Source: Desulfolithobacter dissulfuricans (lineage in GTDB: Bacteria; Desulfobacterota; Desulfobulbia; Desulfobulbales; Desulfobulbaceae). Taken from it: a stretch of 64,000 bases of DNA. The position numbers were made by a program, and so were the translations under genes. Positions 8,042 through 17,118 of this stretch are shown here, piece by piece (the first letter of the stretch is position 1; every line of letters starts with the position of its first letter). The DNA lies in NCBI RefSeq assembly GCF_025998535.1, contig NZ_AP024233.1, positions 2,876,001-2,940,000 of the forward strand, read 5' to 3'. The notes beneath the pieces were generated by a model. That model saw only the letters and a program-made list of their open reading frames with translations, was not told the origin of the DNA and ran no database searches.

Positions 8042-9013
8042 ATGTCTATGGACTACTCTCCGAACTTTTCCTCGATATGGCTCGCTTTTGGTGCGGTTGT
8101 AGTCGGCCTTGTCATGCTGGTCAGCGGCGGCGAATCCCTGGTCTCCGGGGCGGTCAGGCTGGCCCGGCGCTGGGGCGTCTCTCCCCTGGTCATCGGTCTG
8201 ACCGTAGTGGCCTTCGGCACCTCGGTCCCGGAACTCTTTGTCAGCCTCACCGCCGCCCTCCAGGGCCACCCCGATATCATGATCGGCAACGTGGTTGGCT
8301 CCAATATCGCCAACATAGGACTCATACTGGGCTTCTGTGCTCTCATCGTTCCACTCCACCTGACCCTGCGCGAAGTCTGGAACGAACTGCTCCTGGTCCT
8401 GGGAGGCTCCATTCTGCTGATGCTCTGCAGCGCCTATGGCTTCTTTCCCCGCTCCGTCGGCCTGATCTTCATCGTCACCCTGCTTGGTTACACCACCCTG
8501 ACCTATTACCGCAAGTCCGGTCGGATCCCGGAAGAACTCCTGTCCGAAAGCGACAGCAGGGCCGCAGCGCAACCCGTGCTGGTGCCCATCCTCCTGGTGA
8601 TCGGCGGCCTGATCCTGCTGGGTTCGGGCTCGTCGCTGTTCATCAACGGCGCCGTGGACGTTGCCCGTTATTTCCGCGTCAGCGAGTTGATCATCGGCCT
8701 GACCCTGGCGGCCATCGGCACCTCCCTGCCTGAACTGGCATCCAGCCTTTCCGCCTTGCGGCGCAAGGAATCGGGCATGCTGATCGGCAATGTGATCGGC
8801 TCCAACATGTTCAACCTTTTCATGGTTCTCGGCCTGACCGCGGTGATCAAGCCCTTTGCCCTGTCCAGGGATCTCCTCCACCGGGACCTGCCGATCATGC
8901 TGTCCTTCACCCTGATCCTGATCCCCATTCTGCAGCGCAACGGCGGCACCAACCGGTGGCACGGCCTGCTCTTTCTCCTGGGCTACGCCGGCTACTGCCT
9001 GGCTCTCCTGTAA
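8042..9013 (+). CDS. Na+/Ca2+ exchanger-type antiporter (CaCA family, YrbG-like)
   Basis: This is an inner-membrane cation antiporter predicted to exchange Ca2+ for Na+ or H+. The two inverted alpha-repeats are clear: GTSVPELFVSLTA with GNVVGSNIANIG in the first half, and GTSLPELASSLSA with GNVIGSNMFNLF in the second. The acidic residues of the PEL motifs are the expected cation ligands. About ten hydrophobic segments are visible in 323 residues, normal for the family. ATG 8042 (MSMDYSPNF) is preferred; the frame is open upstream to a GTG at 7976, but that region is the inverted repeat. Ion specificity cannot be read from sequence. Confidence 0.88.
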   Translation: MSMDYSPNFSSIWLAFGAVVVGLVMLVSGGESLVSGAVRLARRWGVSPLVIGLTVVAFGTSVPELFVSLTAALQGHPDIMIGNVVGSNIANIGLILGFCALIVPLHLTLREVWNELLLVLGGSILLMLCSAYGFFPRSVGLIFIVTLLGYTTLTYYRKSGRIPEELLSESDSRAAAQPVLVPILLVIGGLILLGSGSSLFINGAVDVARYFRVSELIIGLTLAAIGTSLPELASSLSALRRKESGMLIGNVIGSNMFNLFMVLGLTAVIKPFALSRDLLHRDLPIMLSFTLILIPILQRNGGTNRWHGLLFLLGYAGYCLALL

Positions 9014-9102
9014 GAAGCAGGGAGCCAGCTTGACTTTGCCCCCAGCGGTCTTATGTTTTGCCTGAACAGACATAACCAGGCAAACTCAAGGAGAAGACGA
9101 CC

Positions 9103-9939
9103 ATGATCAATACCGTCAAGACATTCATCCTCATGGCGGCCCTCACCGCCCTGTTCATGGTGGCCGGTCGGGCCATGGGTGGCCAGCAGGGCATGATGAT
9201 CGCCCTGTTCATGGCTGTGGGACTGAACTTTTTTGCTTACTGGAACTCGGACAAGATGGCCCTGGCCATGAACCATGCCCGGGAGATCAGCGAGGTGGAG
9301 GCCCCGGAACTGCACCTGATTGTTGCCAACCTGGCCAGGCGGGCCGGAATCCCCAAGCCCAGGGTCTACATCATCGAAAGCCCGACACCCAACGCCTTTG
9401 CCACCGGCCGCAACCCGCAGCACGCCGCGGTGGCGGTCACCAGAGGCATCCTCCAGATTCTCAACCGGGAGGAACTGGAAGGAGTCCTGGCCCATGAACT
9501 CGGACACATCAAAAACCGGGATATCCTGATCAGCTCCATTGCCGCGGTCATGGCCGGTGCCATTTCCTATCTGGCAACCATGGCGCAATGGGCCATGATA
9601 TTTGGCGGAACAAGAGATGACGACGAGGGTGGCAGTCCGCTGGCAACCATCGTCATGATGATTGTGGCCCCGCTGGCGGCAACTCTGATTCAGATGGCCA
9701 TCTCCCGGAGCCGGGAATACCTGGCCGACCGGGCCGGGGCGGAAATCTGCGGCCACCCCAAAGCACTGGCATCGGCGCTCAACAAACTGGCCAATTACAA
9801 CAAACAGATCCCCATGGATGTCAATCCGGCCACCGCCCAGATGTATATCGTCAACCCTCTCGCCGGCGGCTCGCTGGCCAACCTTTTTTCAACCCATCCT
9901 CCCATCGAGGAACGGATCCGGCGACTGCTGTCCATGTAG
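9103..9939 (+). CDS. htpX: Membrane zinc metalloprotease HtpX
   Basis: HtpX is an inner-membrane M48 protease that degrades misfolded membrane proteins together with FtsH. The 278-residue protein has two N-terminal hydrophobic segments, the zinc-binding motif [10 protein letters not shown] (His-Glu-x-x-His, about residue 130), two more hydrophobic segments, and a downstream [11 protein letters not shown] that supplies the third zinc ligand. The C-terminus [13 protein letters not shown] is typical. A strong bidirectional terminator follows at once and separates it from the convergent TIM-like fragment. Confidence 0.95.
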
Positions 9940-9948
9940 AGCGCAACA

Positions 9949-9996
9949 AAAAAGCCCGCAGAAACCTCTTAGCCTGGGTTTCTGCGGGCTTTTCTT
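9949..9996. terminator. Strong bidirectional intrinsic terminator, copy A
   Basis: AAAGCCCGCAGAAACC (9951-9966) and GGTTTCTGCGGGCTTT (9977-9992) form a perfect 16-bp stem flanked by A and T runs, so it works for htpX and for the convergent TIM-like gene. A near-identical copy sits at 14635-14690. Confidence 0.92.
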
Positions 9997-10402
9997 TTGT
10001 TTCCCCAGCGTCTTCTCAGCGCAAAATCACGAGAAGATCGAGAAATTCCGCCACATCCAGGCAGATCCGGCCCACCATCACCCCGGCCAGCTCAGGCACA
10101 CCCATGAGCCCCTGAATATTTTCACGGTTCACACCGCCACCGTACAGCACTGGCCGGCCGCCGGAGAGCGCCGAGAAGAATGCAGCCGCATCCCGGACCT
10201 CCCGGGCACCGTGCGCCACCTCCAGCTGCACCGCATCAGAGGGTGTATAAGAAAGCACGGTCCGTTCCAGGTCACCACTGTCAATGGCTGCAATCTGCGC
10301 GGTGGCAACCGCGCGTTCCATACAGAGAATCGGCACCAGGCCCGCGGTCACCGCTTCCCGTACCTGCCCGGCCACCTCCTGCGGGGTTTCATGAAAATAC
10401 TT
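9950..10402. repeat. Direct repeat copy A (terminator plus TIM-like 3' end)
   Basis: This segment matches 14636-15081 with about 95% identity by eye: 17 differences over the roughly 385 bp of coding part, clustered at the gene's 3' end. Homology stops abruptly at 10402/10403, where transposase-like sequence begins. Confidence 0.9.
10016..10402 (-). pseudogene. Truncated 3' copy of the TIM-like gene
   Basis: The fragment encodes the C-terminal half of the triosephosphate-isomerase-like protein found complete at 14695. It keeps ILCMERAVATAQIAAID, VLSYTPSDAVQLEVAHG and YGGGVNRENI but lacks the N-terminal barrel strands. The frame is still open, so the duplication is not very old or the fragment was acquired from a close relative. 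An internal ATG at 10375 could start a 119-residue product, but half a TIM barrel is unlikely to be functional. Confidence 0.9.
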
Positions 10403-10406
10403 GTAA

Positions 10407-10655
10407 CGTTCCGGTGTGTTATTATCCCTGGAAGATGCGCGGGAAGTTGTTGCAGGTTTTAATGAGCATTACAACACAAAACGTCCACATAGCCCCATTG
10501 GATGTGTTGTTACCCTGGAGGATAATCCTAGAAGTTGCTATCAGCAAATTTTCAAAGATCGAGAAGCCAAACTGGAGTCCGCCGGGGCGGCCAGAAAAGC
10601 ATTGAGATACCAATGTGGTTGCCCGCCCTTAGCAAAGGATGTTATTGTCTTGTAA
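10407..10655 (+). pseudogene. C-terminal remnant of an IS3-like transposase (rve integrase)
   Basis: The frame encodes FNEHYNTKRPHSPIGCV followed by IFKDREAKLESAGAARKALR. This matches the end of DDE integrase-type transposases of IS3-like elements, where YNxxRPHSxLG precedes a charged tail. A stop (TAA at 10404-10406) lies just upstream, and the catalytic domain is absent because the sequence joins the TIM-like fragment at 10402/10403. It is a dead insertion-sequence end marking the left edge of the A+T-rich island. Confidence 0.75.
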
Positions 10656-10756
10656 TAACCCAGTTACAACCAACTGGACGACCTAGAAGATCCAATTTCA
10701 ACTTAATCATTACACCACAAGTACCATAAAACGGTACTTCGGCACAAAAATTATAT

Positions 10757-11147
10757 GTGATTACCACCAAAGCTCAGCTGTCACCATATAAGGGACAACA
10801 TCGCTTCTTCTCTCTACCTGTGGAAAACTCGTGATCACCGCTCTGCGGTGTCACGCAGGTGACCAGGTAGCCGACGAAGTACCAGCAGACAATGCCCCGC
10901 TCTGCGGGGTGATGCCGGAAACAGGTGTCGGAGCTTCTGGTCTCTGCAATGGTTGTCTGCGGGCCTTGCGAACTATGGGCCATCCCTGCCAGGTACATCA
11001 GGGTACCGCGGGAGCGGTACCTGGGGTGATGGAACGTTCACCGCAGGAGCGGAGGAACGAGAAGTCCAGGCGGTTTTTATTGCTGCCCGGCTCCGTGGCG
11101 CCAGGCGTTGGTATCTTCTCTTCAAGCTGAGCTTTGGTGGTAATCAC
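10757..11147. mobile_element. 391-bp MITE-like element with 23-bp terminal inverted repeats
   Basis: Perfect 23-bp terminal inverted repeats (10757-10779 and 11125-11147, starting GTGATTACCACC) bound a segment with no real gene. AAAATTATAT is present directly outside both ends, which looks like a 10-bp target-site duplication. The interior is G+C-rich with small hairpins (ACCGC-tct-GCGGT, CCCCGC-tct-GCGGGG, and GGTACC repeats), unlike the A+T-rich surroundings. Related ends occur at 14454 and at 47432-47601. Confidence 0.85.
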
Positions 11148-11314
11148 AAAATTATATGATACTGGCAGTGCCATATCGTTTGTGAAAACTTGCGAAAACA
11201 ACCCATTGCTTATTCCTTTTGCTACGTTGTGAGGACAACTCAGACTCGGTTATAGCAATGAGTCGTTCACGCCGAAAATGCTATAAACTCTGACCATATC
11301 CAAAGGCATATGGT
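11148..11314. other. Upstream region of the GGDEF/EAL gene
   Basis: No gene is seen. A short inverted repeat (TATAGCA and TGCTATA, 21-nt loop) lies near 11250-11290, directly upstream of the GGDEF/EAL gene. Base composition drops toward A+T from here. Confidence 0.3.
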
Positions 11315-14170
11315 TTGCATATTAAAACAAACAATATAATTAAAAAATTAATACGAATAATGAACCACATAACAATACGCAAACGCATTACGCTTGTCAT
11401 ATCATTTATTATAATCCCATTCCTAATTCCATCTTATTTCACTTTTGAATCCCAATACAATGAACTCGTACTTATTCATAATGAAAAAAGTGCCCTTAAA
11501 TACCTTGACCACATAAATAGATTGCAAGTATTAATTGCAGAGCATAGGGGAATGATGCAGGCATTTCTCAACGGTGACAATTCATTCAATTCATCATTAG
11601 ATACGCTTGAACGTAAAATAAATAGTACATTTAGCACATTCGAACAAGTTGACTGGTCTGAAAAAAAATTTCTGCATGACGATGCCAACTACAAAAATGC
11701 AAAAGCACTATGGCATACTGCAACAATGAAACATTTTCTAGATACTTCTGACAAAAACTTCAATCTGCATACAACAATTATTGAAGAACTGATCTACTTG
11801 ATAAAAAATATCTCCAACAGACTGGGTATTCCTAAAGACAGGAATATCCAGAACCATTATCTCTCCGTAGCTCTTTTTGACACACTTCCAAAACTTAAAA
11901 ACCATATTGGCATGATTCGTGGATTTACCACAGGAATACTGACCAAACAACAAATAAGCAAAGAGGACAAAAAGCTCTTCCTCAAGATTTACCTGCTTGC
12001 CAATGCAGAACTCAATACCCTACAGCTGAGCATGCATCACTACCTGAAACAAACGAATATTCCAAAACTTGAGCGAAGTATTCTACAGTCATCAAAGACA
12101 ATTGAACTTTTTATGCAAAGAACAGAATCCTTGGTGCTACATACAGATTCACTCGCGCAGCCGGTTAAGAGTTTCTTCAAAGAAGCCACCCAGACGATCG
12201 GTGAAATATCCAAACTCCATGATGATATCCTCAACCATTTCCAAAACGACCTGAAAAACCGAATGGATGCAGCAGAATCAAAAATCATTCTGGTGGCATT
12301 GGGCTTGACAAGCATGGTTTTGTTCGCCGGCCTGCTCGGCCTGGCATTTTACCAATCCGTTTCAAGACCGCTCCAAGAGCTTCAAAATGGTGTCTATGCG
12401 ATAACGCACGGCAACTATTCTCCGCTAAAGGTGGACACCAAAGACGAACTGGCGACAATTGCACTGGCATTCAACACAATGGCCGCCGAAATCAGAAAAC
12501 AGCTAAGTTTTCTCCAGTGGTACAAAACAGCCCTTGACAGTTCATCGCTTGTCAGCAAAACCGACCCTGAAGGCAACATCACCTATGTCAACGAACTATT
12601 GTTGCACGCAACCGGTTATTCAGAGAAAGAGCTAATCGGCAAGCGGTACAAAACACTCCTTCATCCGGAAATGCCAGAAGAACTGTTTAGGCAGATGCGG
12701 GAGGCAATCAGGGACAAAAAAATATGGAATGGGGAATTGAAAACCCGTACAAAAAACGGCACGGAACTGATAACAGAGACGACGATCATTCCGATACTTG
12801 ACGACAAAAACCAGATCAAAGAGTATGTGGCCGTGCACAGCGACATCACAGAACTGATCAAGTCGAAAGAAAAAATCCAGAACATGCTCTATTTCGATAC
12901 ATTGACCGGGCTTCCAAACCGTGCCAGGCTACTTGAAGATCTGAAAAAAGAAAAAGGATACGCTATTATCATTGTCAACATCGACGATTTCAGACTGGTG
13001 AACGATTTTTACGGCTACGAAGCCGGAAACAAGATGCTGCAGGACATGGCCCTATGGATCAGTAATTTTGCGCAGGGGCACTACGCTGTTTATCGACTGC
13101 CTTCCGATGAGTTCGCCCTTGTCTCGTTTGAGAGCAGAGAGGCGAGGAAGGTTATCGATTTTGCCAGAGCGATGACTGAATATATCGAAAAACATACGAT
13201 TTCATACAATGGCAGCGATATTCCGATACTGATAAAAGCTGGAGTAGCACTACTTCGCGATGATAAAGATGTAGGAAGAATACTGATCAATGCCGATACC
13301 GCGATCAAAGAAGCCAAGCAGCATCTGGAAAAAATTATCTTTTACAACGAAAGCAGGTTCGCAAAAGAGGCGTACAAACGCAACATGGAATGGATCAAAA
13401 AGATCAAGACAGCGATTGCGGAAGATCGCATCGTTCCTTTTTTTCAGCCCATTTACAACAACAGGACAAATAAAATTGACAAGTATGAAGCCCTTGTGCG
13501 TCTCATCGATACAGATGGCAGTGTCATTTCGCCGTTTCACTTTCTCGATATCGCAAAAAAGGCAAAACTCTATACCGACATCACCCGGATCATGATCGAA
13601 AAATCGTTTCAGGTTTTTGCCCGGCGAAATGAAGAACTCTCCGTCAACATCTCGACACAGGACATTCTTGATGCCGACCTCGTTGCATTTTTAATTGAAA
13701 AAATCAAAGGTTACAAAATGCAAAATCGCATAAACTGCGAATGCTCAGACACGGATCAGGCCACGCTCAACAACCGCATCGTATTCGAACTCACCGAAAG
13801 CGAAGAAGTGGAAAACTATGATGAAACAATCAGGTTCATAAAGAAGATCAAAGAATGCGGCGGAAAAATGGCCATCGACGATTTTGGAACCGGTTACTCC
13901 AATTTCGTCTATATCCTCAATATGGGAATAAATTATCTGAAAATCGACGGGAGCCTTATCAAAACCATTTTAACTGACGACAAATCGCTGACGCTCGTCA
14001 AGGCCATCGTCGGCTTTACCCGTGAACTGGGAATTAAAACGATTGCGGAATTTGTCAGCGACGCCGAGTTGCAAAAGAAGGTCGAAGAGATCGGAATTGA
14101 CTATTCACAAGGCTACTATATCGATAAACCGCTCCCACAAGAGAAACTTCCACCTCCTATAGGATCCTGA
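11315..14170 (+). CDS. Membrane HAMP-PAS-GGDEF-EAL cyclic-di-GMP protein
   Basis: The 951-residue protein has an N-terminal membrane helix (about 26-45), a helical periplasmic sensor region, a second helix (about 324-346), HAMP (350-395), PAS (400-520), a GGDEF-fold domain and a C-terminal EAL domain. The GGDEF signature is degenerate (RLPSDEFAL), so cyclase activity is doubtful. EAL residues are kept: YEALVR, ELTESEE, DDFGTGYSN, KIDGS and SQGYYIDKPLP, so a c-di-GMP phosphodiesterase is likely. The start is TTG 11315 or ATG 11360; neither has a strong ribosome binding site. Its low G+C and AAA/ATT-rich codons contrast with all neighbours, indicating horizontal transfer, possibly from an A+T-rich campylobacterial-type donor (inference). 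Confidence 0.88.
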   Translation: MHIKTNNIIKKLIRIMNHITIRKRITLVISFIIIPFLIPSYFTFESQYNELVLIHNEKSALKYLDHINRLQVLIAEHRGMMQAFLNGDNSFNSSLDTLERKINSTFSTFEQVDWSEKKFLHDDANYKNAKALWHTATMKHFLDTSDKNFNLHTTIIEELIYLIKNISNRLGIPKDRNIQNHYLSVALFDTLPKLKNHIGMIRGFTTGILTKQQISKEDKKLFLKIYLLANAELNTLQLSMHHYLKQTNIPKLERSILQSSKTIELFMQRTESLVLHTDSLAQPVKSFFKEATQTIGEISKLHDDILNHFQNDLKNRMDAAESKIILVALGLTSMVLFAGLLGLAFYQSVSRPLQELQNGVYAITHGNYSPLKVDTKDELATIALAFNTMAAEIRKQLSFLQWYKTALDSSSLVSKTDPEGNITYVNELLLHATGYSEKELIGKRYKTLLHPEMPEELFRQMREAIRDKKIWNGELKTRTKNGTELITETTIIPILDDKNQIKEYVAVHSDITELIKSKEKIQNMLYFDTLTGLPNRARLLEDLKKEKGYAIIIVNIDDFRLVNDFYGYEAGNKMLQDMALWISNFAQGHYAVYRLPSDEFALVSFESREARKVIDFARAMTEYIEKHTISYNGSDIPILIKAGVALLRDDKDVGRILINADTAIKEAKQHLEKIIFYNESRFAKEAYKRNMEWIKKIKTAIAEDRIVPFFQPIYNNRTNKIDKYEALVRLIDTDGSVISPFHFLDIAKKAKLYTDITRIMIEKSFQVFARRNEELSVNISTQDILDADLVAFLIEKIKGYKMQNRINCECSDTDQATLNNRIVFELTESEEVENYDETIRFIKKIKECGGKMAIDDFGTGYSNFVYILNMGINYLKIDGSLIKTILTDDKSLTLVKAIVGFTRELGIKTIAEFVSDAELQKKVEEIGIDYSQGYYIDKPLPQEKLPPPIGS

Positions 14171-14213
14171 CGCTGCGTAACATGCCGTTCTTCGATGTAA
14201 TCAAGCTGATTTT

Positions 14214-14452
14214 TCAAAGAGTTCGGAATTTATTTTCCGCCATTGTTTCAATGGTCTGAGCAGATATTATGTACCCGAGATTTTTCAGTGGAATGTGATT
14301 ATCGGATATCCTCCAGCAGTCATCCAATATTCCCTTGAGATGGCCGGCAGATTGAAATCTTGTCTGGGCAACGACTTCCGCTATTCCGGAGTTGAACTTC
14401 TCGACTTTTCCATTGGTTTACGGTCGTTTCGGTCTGGTAAGGCAATGTCCTA
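14214..14452 (-). pseudogene. IS481-like transposase remnant with nonsense mutation
   Basis: Read on the minus strand the frame gives TNGKVEKFNSGIAEVV, then QTRFQSAGHLKGIL, ISDNHIPLKNLGYI and a stop at 14214. This matches the C-terminal part of IS481-type DDE transposases (PQTNGKVERFN, YNHxxPxxALG). A TAA at 14418-14420 replaces the expected Gln just before TNGKVE, and the sequence is cut at its 5' side by the MITE end at 14454. It is inactive. Confidence 0.7.
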
Positions 14453-14453
14453 T

Positions 14454-14529
14454 GTGATTACCACCTTAGCTCAGCTTTCATCGATCTGAGGGGTAACATC
14501 GCTTCTTCTCTCTGCTGGTAGAAAAAACT
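14454..14529. mobile_element. Left-end fragment of the GTGATTACC MITE family
   Basis: About 75 bp match the left end of the 391-bp element: GTGATTACCACC, then TAGCTCAGCT and ACATCGCTTCTTCTCTCT. No matching right end is found, so this is a truncated copy. It abuts the IS481-like remnant. Confidence 0.7.
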
Positions 14530-14634
14530 TAATTGCTCTAATATACTATATATATACGCTTTTACGAATAACTCTTTCCAATGCTCAGCGATGCCAACCC
14601 CTGTTCAGGCTGAGTTTCAGAGGTCATCAGAGTG
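14530..14634. other. A+T-rich non-coding junction
   Basis: This is a short A+T-rich stretch (TAATATACTATATATATACG) between the MITE fragment and the second terminator copy. No gene or clear signal is seen, and it ends at the right boundary of the island. Confidence 0.3.
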
Positions 14635-14690
14635 AAAAAAAAAGCCCGCAGAAACCTTATGCAAACGGTTTCTGCGGGCTTTTCCTTTCT
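14635..14690. terminator. Strong bidirectional intrinsic terminator, copy B
   Basis: The perfect 16-bp stem AAAGCCCGCAGAAACC / GGTTTCTGCGGGCTTT of copy A is repeated, with a different loop and flanking A9/T-rich runs. It terminates the TIM-like gene on the minus strand. Confidence 0.92.
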
Positions 14691-15081
14691 TTTCTCATCG
14701 CAGGGTCTCGAGAAGATCGAGAAATTCCGATACATCCAGACAGCTCCGGCCCACCATCACCCCGGCCAGCTCAGGCACACCCATGAGTTCCTGAATGTTT
14801 TCACGGTTCACACCGCCACCGTACAGCACTGGCCGGCCGCCGGAGAGCGCCGAGAAGAATGCAGCCGCATCCCGGACCTCCCGGGCACCGTGCGCCACCT
14901 CCAGCTGCACCGCATCAGAGGGTGTATAAGAAAGCACGGTCCGTTCCAGATCACCACTGTCAATGGCTGCAATCTGCGCGGTGGCAACCGCGCGTTCCAT
15001 ACAGAGAATCGGAACCAGACCCGCGCTGACCGCTTCCCGTACCTGCCCGGCCACCTCCTGCAGGGTTTCATGAAAATACTT
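14636..15081. repeat. Direct repeat copy B (inside the complete TIM-like gene)
   Basis: This is the counterpart of 9950-10402. Homology ends at the shared TTTCATGAAAATACTT, after which copy B continues in the intact gene. Confidence 0.9.
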
Positions 15082-15387
15082 CCGGGTCTCTCGGTGCCCG
15101 GCAAGGGTGTATCCGGCCATTCCCGCAAGCCAGACCGCCGGCAGTGCCCCGGTATACGCCCCCGGAGGATAGGGAGAGACATGCTGGGCTGCCACGGCCA
15201 CACCATCGAGCGACGCCACCTCCCGGTATACCTGGCGCAGATACAGGGAAGGCACAGCCAGCACCACCTCTATCCCGGAAACCGGTCGATACCGCTGCCG
15301 AAAGACATCCAGCCACTGCTTCACCTTTACCGGTGACAGGGCCGCCTTCCAGTTAGCCACCACCATCTTTCCCTGTTCAGACACCAT
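14695..15387 (-). CDS. Triosephosphate-isomerase-like TIM-barrel protein, catalytic Glu not conserved
   Basis: The 230-residue protein is clearly related to triosephosphate isomerase. It has NWKAAL with the substrate Lys near the N-terminus, GHRETRKYFHET in place of the GHSERR histidine loop, YGGGVNRENI for the phosphate site and MVGRSCLD near the end. The loop that normally carries the general-base Glu (YEPxWAIG or the archaeal VEPPELIG) reads SYTPSDAVQLEV, with no Glu at the catalytic position. It may therefore be a pseudo-enzyme or have another role, and a canonical tpiA may lie elsewhere. ATG 15387 is chosen for its GGAGG site; upstream Met codons are possible. Confidence 0.75.
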   Translation of the reverse strand: MVSEQGKMVVANWKAALSPVKVKQWLDVFRQRYRPVSGIEVVLAVPSLYLRQVYREVASLDGVAVAAQHVSPYPPGAYTGALPAVWLAGMAGYTLAGHRETRKYFHETLQEVAGQVREAVSAGLVPILCMERAVATAQIAAIDSGDLERTVLSYTPSDAVQLEVAHGAREVRDAAAFFSALSGGRPVLYGGGVNRENIQELMGVPELAGVMVGRSCLDVSEFLDLLETLR

Positions 15388-15539
15388 ATGTTGAATCCTC
15401 CCTGGAAAGGTCTTGTTTTCTATCCTTCTGACCTCATCCCGCCAATACATAGAGATGAATGGTCGACAATGCGTTTTTGGCCTGGGGGCAAGGCTGCGGC
15501 TGCGAGACCTTCGCGAAAGTCCTCGTTTGTGGACGGACC

Positions 15540-16496
15540 CTAGTCCAGCAGTCTTTTCTCGCCTGTGATTTTCTGAATGTCACCGATGGCCTGGGTGACC
15601 TCGAGGACCCCAAGGTATTCGCCCTGTTCGTTTCGCACCGGAAAGTAACGGATGAGTACCTTGTCACCGCGAAAATCGATCCAGAATTCCGCCTTGTCCC
15701 GGGTGCCGTTCTTGAAGCCCTCGACGATCTCACTGACCATGTCGACACTTTTTTCCGGATGACATTTGGTGACCTTGCGGCCGATGACCGAACGGGTTCT
15801 GGGAAACAGTTTCTCCTTGTCAAGCCGGTTGAAATAGGCAACCGTGTCTTCGGCGTCCACAAAAGTCACCTCGAAGGGCAAGGTCTCCATGATCCCCTCT
15901 ATCTGTTCGTAGGAGAGATTGTGGATGAGACCTTTTTTCTCTTTCAACACCTTCTCGACCTCAGTGACCATCTCCTCGAAATGTCTGTCAGCCTGGTCTC
16001 CGTAGGTTTCTCTGTTGATGCCGACAAATGCATCCAGCAGCTTCTGGTTGTCCTCGTCCAGCAGAACCTGTCGACCCATGGGATACAACACATCGTTTTC
16101 CTTCCAGATGTGTTCGGCGCGGACGCGGAGATAATCATATCCTTCCTGGCGGTAGCGCGCCACCTCTTCGGCCGGCAGCTCCGCCAGGGACGGAGCCTTG
16201 GTGATCATGTTCTGCAGCAGGTTGCGCTCCATCTCATGTTCCTGAAGCATGACACCGAGCGGTCCCCCCTGCACCGGGATACCCCGTTCCTGCATGAGAG
16301 GAAAAAGATACTCCTCCTCCTTGCGGTTGTGGACTTTGTCCCCGAACTCGAGCAGAAAATCCAGAGCCCGGACCATCTGCACCGGTTTGGCCATGGTCTC
16401 GTCCATGTTATCGAGGCAGCTTTTCAGAACGGCCATGGCCCGTTCGATCATCTCGTGCTCAGCGATCAGGAAATCGTCCCATCGTTGGTACTGCAT
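15540..16496 (-). CDS. Hemerythrin-PAS protein (DUF438-like)
   Basis: The 318-residue soluble protein combines an N-terminal hemerythrin-like four-helix domain (about 1-180; HEMIERA, HNRKEEEYLFP, LQEHEMER and AEHIWKENDVLYP supply His and Glu iron ligands) with a C-terminal PAS-like domain (about 200-310; FEVTFVDAEDTVAYFNR, VIGRKVTKCHPEKS, RYFPVRNEQGEYLGVLEVTQ). Such proteins are thought to sense O2, NO or redox state, and are frequent in anaerobes. The start has an excellent AGGAGG site. It is a single gene, downstream in orientation from an inverted-repeat element. Confidence 0.88.
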   Translation of the reverse strand: MQYQRWDDFLIAEHEMIERAMAVLKSCLDNMDETMAKPVQMVRALDFLLEFGDKVHNRKEEEYLFPLMQERGIPVQGGPLGVMLQEHEMERNLLQNMITKAPSLAELPAEEVARYRQEGYDYLRVRAEHIWKENDVLYPMGRQVLLDEDNQKLLDAFVGINRETYGDQADRHFEEMVTEVEKVLKEKKGLIHNLSYEQIEGIMETLPFEVTFVDAEDTVAYFNRLDKEKLFPRTRSVIGRKVTKCHPEKSVDMVSEIVEGFKNGTRDKAEFWIDFRGDKVLIRYFPVRNEQGEYLGVLEVTQAIGDIQKITGEKRLLD

Positions 16497-16616
16497 GGCA
16501 ATCCTCCTAGATTTGTATCGGATCGTGGATTGATAATTTTATCTTACAACTACCACAAGTTTGCATAATTCCATAGTGATTTTCACATGTTGCCATGTCC
16601 GGGCCGAGCCAGAGTC

Positions 16617-16785
16617 TGGTCCAGCCATGCTGGTTTAACTGAAAACCAGTGACAAGTGACGAGTTACTGGTGGCAAGTCTGTGGAAGAGATTCTATCCAA
16701 GCCAGCTATTCCCATTTTAGACATCAAAGGCTCAGAAAAACAAATTTTACGACGTATTTTTCAATAAACCAGCATGGCTGGACCA
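16617..16785. mobile_element. 169-bp element with perfect 21-bp terminal inverted repeats
   Basis: TGGTCCAGCCATGCTGG... at 16617-16637 is the exact reverse complement of 16765-16785. The interior contains a smaller hairpin (AACCAGT / ACTGGT) and no gene. No convincing target duplication is seen. It resembles a MITE of a different family from the one at 10757. Confidence 0.7.
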
Positions 16786-17118
16786 CATTTCAGAACTGTC
16801 CAGCCACAACAGATAGCGAAGACTTCGAACCATGAAAATCATCCTGGCAACACCTTGCCTTGGGGCAATTTTCGGATAAAAGAGCACGCTCTTGCCGTTG
16901 ATTCTGATGTTTTTGATCATGAGGCCCTGTTCGCAGTGATTTCTGGCGTTTTTTCCTTATGTTTTGGACGTGCCGGTTCATCTCTCGGCAAAAGTCTCAA
17001 GCCTACTCTTGACTTTTTTCGACCTATAAAAGCCAAAGGCAGACTTGACCTCACCATACGGGATATCATGCTGAGGTTCAGGCATCAGGCTGCCCGTAAA
17101 AATTTCAGGCAGATTCTT
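16786..17118. other. Non-coding region downstream of cbiG
   Basis: These 333 bp lie between the inverted-repeat element and the end of the cobalamin operon. Only short, out-of-context frames are present. No convincing terminator, RNA or gene was found. Confidence 0.3.

Follow-up and report, generated by a model that had tools for sequence, protein, structure and literature searches.

When molecules with the 3' end of lacZ recombined by single crossover in E. coli, 109-950 bp were duplicated (PMC3240628). In V. cholerae, homology-facilitated illegitimate recombination has been put forward as the origin of displaced 3' ends that were retained (PMC5361080). Here we describe a locus in which the terminator and the 3' end of a TIM-like gene are found on both sides of a 4.2-kb island. 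The locus is a legible case of foreign or rearranged DNA that became fixed beside a conserved gene pair with neither gene broken.

The direct repeat and the ancestral gene order

Unless given as genome positions, coordinates refer to the window, which is the whole stretch of DNA analysed (64,000 nucleotides). The genes and repeat copies that delimit the island are:

9103..9939, plus strand: htpX, zinc metalloprotease, the ancestral convergent neighbour (NCBIfam NF002826, E=5.7e-122, above cutoff)
~9945-10402, minus strand: repeat copy 1, terminator and truncated TIM-like 3' end (129 codons) beside htpX (alignment, codon differences)
9945-9999: bidirectional terminator of repeat copy 1 (hairpin fold, -33 kcal/mol)
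~14635-15081, minus strand: repeat copy 2, terminator and 3' end inside the intact TIM-like gene (alignment, codon differences)
14695..15450, minus strand: intact TIM-like gene, 251 aa as listed (Pfam TIM, E=2.4e-36)

Judged by its sequence, the TIM-like gene is a conserved family paralogue of triosephosphate isomerase. Of the catalytic residues of that enzyme, Lys (NWK) and His (GHRE) are conserved in the protein, and the position of Glu is occupied by Thr (SYTP), as it is in nearly all family homologues (AYTP versus AYEP in the alignment). The full catalytic set of Lys, His, and Glu that marks a triosephosphate isomerase enzyme is thus lacking. Identity to the gene in other sampled genera is at most ~59%. 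TIM-like homologues adjoin htpX in many genomes, and they coexist with a second, distant TIM homologue.

The first-pass annotation had reported that the terminator and the last ~380 bp of the TIM-like gene are duplicated. The direct repeat was borne out: the terminator and the last 129 codons are present twice, ~4.7 kb apart, and the island occupies the space between the two copies exactly. Copy 1 ends at 10402, where it meets internal sequence of an IS3-type transposase gene, and copy 2 continues into the intact gene, in agreement with the annotation's description of one copy truncated at an IS3-like transposase end and the other inside an intact gene. The intact gene now terminates in one of two alternative 3' ends. 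The repeat is the sole long direct repeat of such quality within the 64 kb, far beyond chance, and the 3.6-Mb genome contains two copies of it only.

The repeat is ~450 bp long, and the alignment of copies 1 and 2 revealed 18 differences over the 387 nt of the coding part (95.3% identity). An identical internal run of 152 nt lies in the coding part between two diverged tracts (p=0.0005 vs random placement). Seven of the 18 differences change an amino acid, which is fewer than under neutral decay (P=0.004 for full neutrality, and P=0.04 if half of the divergence is neutral); these tests of substitution bias have only 18 differences to work with and are blurred by gene conversion. Each copy holds a strong bidirectional terminator. 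The terminator stems are the same in both copies, while the loops and flanks differ and include an 11-12 bp indel; outside the hairpin stem, non-coding sequence has diverged further than coding sequence. The greater divergence outside the stem, together with the small number of amino acid changes, suggests that the divergence arose before the two ends were joined; the synonymous excess, counted over the same 18 differences, likewise suggests that both ends were still functional while they diverged. At several positions copy 1 carries residues (G, I, V, I) that are rare or absent in the family (30 homologues compared), so that it looks like the unconstrained one of the two.

The genes htpX and TIM-like are convergent and adjacent in all 20 same-family loci where both could be read, and the island is found in none of them. 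The gap between the two genes is below 300 bp in 17 of these loci and 1.1-1.2 kb in the remaining three, which belong to members of one genus. Nine further loci, in which htpX falls beyond the fetched flank, are outside this count. The empty-site comparison is one of family genomes, with the genus represented by one genome in the set. The original order of the locus is htpX-terminator-TIM-like, with the genes convergent, and the island is thus an insertion in this lineage. The order that includes the island was not seen in distant relatives.

Contents of the island

The following features were recognised between the truncated end of copy 1 and the terminator of copy 2:

10403..10700, plus strand: IS3-type transposase gene, 3' end only, adjoining the truncated copy 1 (ORF 10416-10655; Pfam rve_3, E=2.3e-6)
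10756..11148, strand not applicable: MITE1, 393 bp, with 24-bp perfect terminal inverted repeats
11360..14170, plus strand: HAMP-PAS-GGDEF-EAL gene, 936 aa, intact (Pfam EAL 3.4e-53, GGDEF 6.4e-22, PAS_9, HAMP)
14203..14456, minus strand: C-terminal remnant of an IS481-like rve transposase (DNA matches and rve family)
~14453-14629, strand not applicable: MITE2, short (~177 bp) and degenerate, of MITE1's family, with homologues at genome 456655 and 2470271

Besides the IS3-type end at copy 1, the island contains one intact PAS-GGDEF-EAL gene, an IS481-like remnant, and two MITEs, which matches the two transposase remnants and the MITE copies that the annotation had placed between the repeats. 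A search of the genome for a second copy of the IS3-type transposase end found none. The IS481-like remnant has DNA matches of 72-75% to better transposase copies at genome 441183-441430 and 956845-957097. The island ORFs were compared to Pfam and PHROGs; matches were limited to the rve_3 transposase end and the GGDEF/EAL protein, and no integrase, excisionase, tyrosine or serine recombinase, or phage gene was recognised. No tRNA was found in or near the island, and an Rfam scan of 9000-17000 returned no match. The possibility of a composite transposon was rejected, as flanking IS copies and a target duplication are lacking and the ends are an internal fragment of IS3 and a degenerate MITE.

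MITE1 is flanked by an 8-bp target duplication, AAATTATA (10748-10755 and 11149-11156), and a 98% identical copy is located at genome 2634429-2634836. The perfect ends, the target duplication, and the copy elsewhere identify MITE1 as a recent insertion into a pre-existing island. The right end of MITE2 abuts the terminator of copy 2, its left flank is the IS481-like remnant, and a target duplication is absent. The family to which both belong occurs throughout the genome, and its members adjoin T/A runs, one of them behind an apparent terminator; this would account for the position of the MITE2 end, at the A-run of the terminator. At 16617-16785 the window also contains a perfect 21-bp inverted repeat, TGGTCCAGCCATGCTGGTTTA, with its arms 127 bp apart, which is probably another MITE. 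A similar sequence is present between htpX and the TIM-like gene in one other locus (L054).

Two further observations concern repeats elsewhere in the genome. An IS110-family transposase is present in seven copies with identical protein sequence, among loci L002, L003, L105, L108, L109, and L110 (genome 3171251, 3203072, 838864, 1728403, 2317611, and 2417100, respectively). For the six copies whose ends were read, the insertion site is the loop of a CACCGC-GCGG hairpin, similar in all cases; three of these copies lie within a MITE of the MITE1 type. IS110/IS1111 elements are known to target hairpins, and the pattern seen here is reminiscent of that. Loci L101 and L102 (genome ~2306-2347 kb) contain toxin-antitoxin-like genes (PIN, Fic, TacA/GNAT, Phd/ParE, and AAA-DUF4143) separated by recurring hairpin-rich repeats of 60-250 bp, parts of which also form the inside of MITE1. 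These repeats are candidates for an integron-like array or for REP-type repeats.

The start of the GGDEF/EAL gene is probably the ATG at 11360. The EAL signature and the metal and catalytic motifs are complete (YEALVRL, VNIS, ELTESE, DDFGTGYS, LKIDGS, IAEFV, and QGYYIDKP), and the GGDEF motif is degenerate (PSDEF); by known motif rules, the predicted product is probably a c-di-GMP phosphodiesterase. The gene has a G+C content of 42% and a GC3 of 0.487, compared to 0.732 +/- 0.057 for the host (33 window genes; z=-4.3), and its codon bias falls outside the host range. The gene is compositionally foreign, as the annotation had held, and the G+C content of the island differs from the genome mean. 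The annotation's description of the island as A+T-rich holds for the GGDEF gene, the remnants, and the spacers, to which low G+C is confined, but not for MITE1 and the repeat copies.

Searches for the source of this gene returned relatives but no donor. The best relatives are ~40% identical over the C-terminal half (the PAS-GGDEF-EAL part) and come from the same family, from a Sulfurimonas plasmid, and from the genome itself, where a paralogue of this part with native G+C is located at genome 3522948-3524564. For the N-terminal sensor part, the phylum sample gave no more than 20-25% identity across most of the length, and no relatives among the same-family members of that sample. A peptide-pattern search of genome contigs and viral contigs gave no match, and no relatives of the GGDEF/EAL gene or of the TIM-like gene were found in the viral contigs.

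Origin of the island

We give slightly better than even credence to the island being the scar of an insertion-duplication, in which DNA with a slightly diverged TIM-like 3' end was joined to the chromosome by homologous recombination. On the incoming DNA, the island would have lain next to a version of the TIM-like terminator and 3' end that had diverged slightly, and homologous recombination within that 3' end would have joined this DNA to the chromosome. This could have happened through a single crossover that integrated a circular molecule (Campbell type), or with linear DNA that had one homologous and one illegitimate end (homology-facilitated illegitimate recombination). Both routes would lead to the same product, that is, one complete TIM-like gene and a second 3' end, truncated beside htpX and joined to IS debris. 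The locus has the anatomy of a single-crossover insertion-duplication, with direct repeats of the target fragment around the insert, one truncated and one complete, and the observed order (htpX, terminator, 3' end, island, terminator, 3' end, rest of the gene) is the one expected if the island DNA joined through a TIM-like fragment. Strand exchange at the crossover or later conversion would have created the 152-bp identical tract, and a tract of this kind flanked by diverged tracts fits either process. The insertion of MITE1 would have followed the joining.

Given the ~59% ceiling on identity to other genera, we infer that a 95% identical end came either from a close relative or, as a diverged copy of the locus, from the same genome; the crossover route we likewise infer from the anatomy. 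The edges of the island carry MITE and IS481 families that are native to the genome, and it may therefore be wrong to regard the incoming DNA as foreign.

The alternative that survives best is a tandem duplication in situ of the TIM-like gene or of its end, which we regard as possible though unlikely. The IS, the MITEs, and the foreign GGDEF/EAL gene would later have gathered between the copies, a deletion adjacent to an IS would have truncated copy 1, and gene conversion, which is common between close repeats, would have homogenised the middle. Family-atypical residues such as those of copy 1 would be expected in a decaying duplicate, and the flanking MITE and IS481 families reside in the genome. 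However, this scenario requires several independent steps with ends that coincide with the repeat borders, and the coding differences are skewed to synonymous ones.

The annotation had compared the island to an element inserted at the 3' end of a gene. That the island is an insertion stands, given the 20 family loci that lack it. We consider it improbable that it is a site-specific integrative element, one whose attachment site was the 3' end of the TIM-like gene, which brought in a substitute 3' end, and whose integrase has since disappeared. The geometry fits, with an intact gene that has one 3' end and a displaced 3' end on the opposite side, as do the partly foreign composition of the island and the empty site in the family genomes, and the 152-bp identical tract could hide an att core. 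Yet neither an integrase nor another element gene was recognised in the island, a tRNA was not found nearby, none of the 20 family loci holds an element of such anatomy, and the repeat consists of ~450 bp of diverged gene and terminator rather than a short identical core. In sequence, the repeat looks like the product of homologous recombination and not like an att core. Insertion-duplication by homologous recombination explains the same anatomy without a lost integrase, and the loss of an integrase does not follow from the presence of a long gene-end repeat on either side of an island.

Transposition of the gene end and island as a composite unit, mediated by a MITE or an IS, appears very improbable. 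MITE2 abuts the terminator, members of its family lie beside T/A runs, and an IS3 end forms the other junction; but MITE2 has no matching target duplication and has a different transposase remnant at its left flank, the IS3 junction is inside the transposase gene and not at a terminal repeat, and terminal repeats and target duplications are absent around the whole 4.2-kb block. Finally, a small unclassified element that has the terminator and gene end as its target and cargo, and that restores both to the gene it has entered, is scarcely credible; if it were real, htpX and the TIM-like gene would both keep a working terminator.

An insertion-duplication is an event of a known kind, and the island is most likely an ordinary recombination scar that represents neither a new element type nor a new mechanism. 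After the event, htpX and the TIM-like gene each own a copy of the terminator they formerly shared, with both hairpin stems preserved.

Comparison with known systems

As in the Campbell insertion-duplications in E. coli, a truncated and a complete copy of the gene flank the insert, and the repeat falls within the 109-950 bp range (PMC3240628). In contrast to those constructs, the island described here is natural and old, its copies have diverged, and it has no recognisable vector backbone. A replaced and a displaced 3' end are also the geometry seen when an integrative element gives its protein-coding target gene a new 3' end; the island differs from such elements in that it has no recognisable integrase and its repeat is long and diverged. 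At T6SS effector loci of V. cholerae and at Rhs loci, incoming DNA likewise joined a gene in its 3' part, and the former 3' end was moved downstream and retained (PMC5361080). In those cases a different module is encoded by the incoming 3' end, whereas at the present locus the two 3' ends are almost alike and the cargo consists of a c-di-GMP gene and IS debris.
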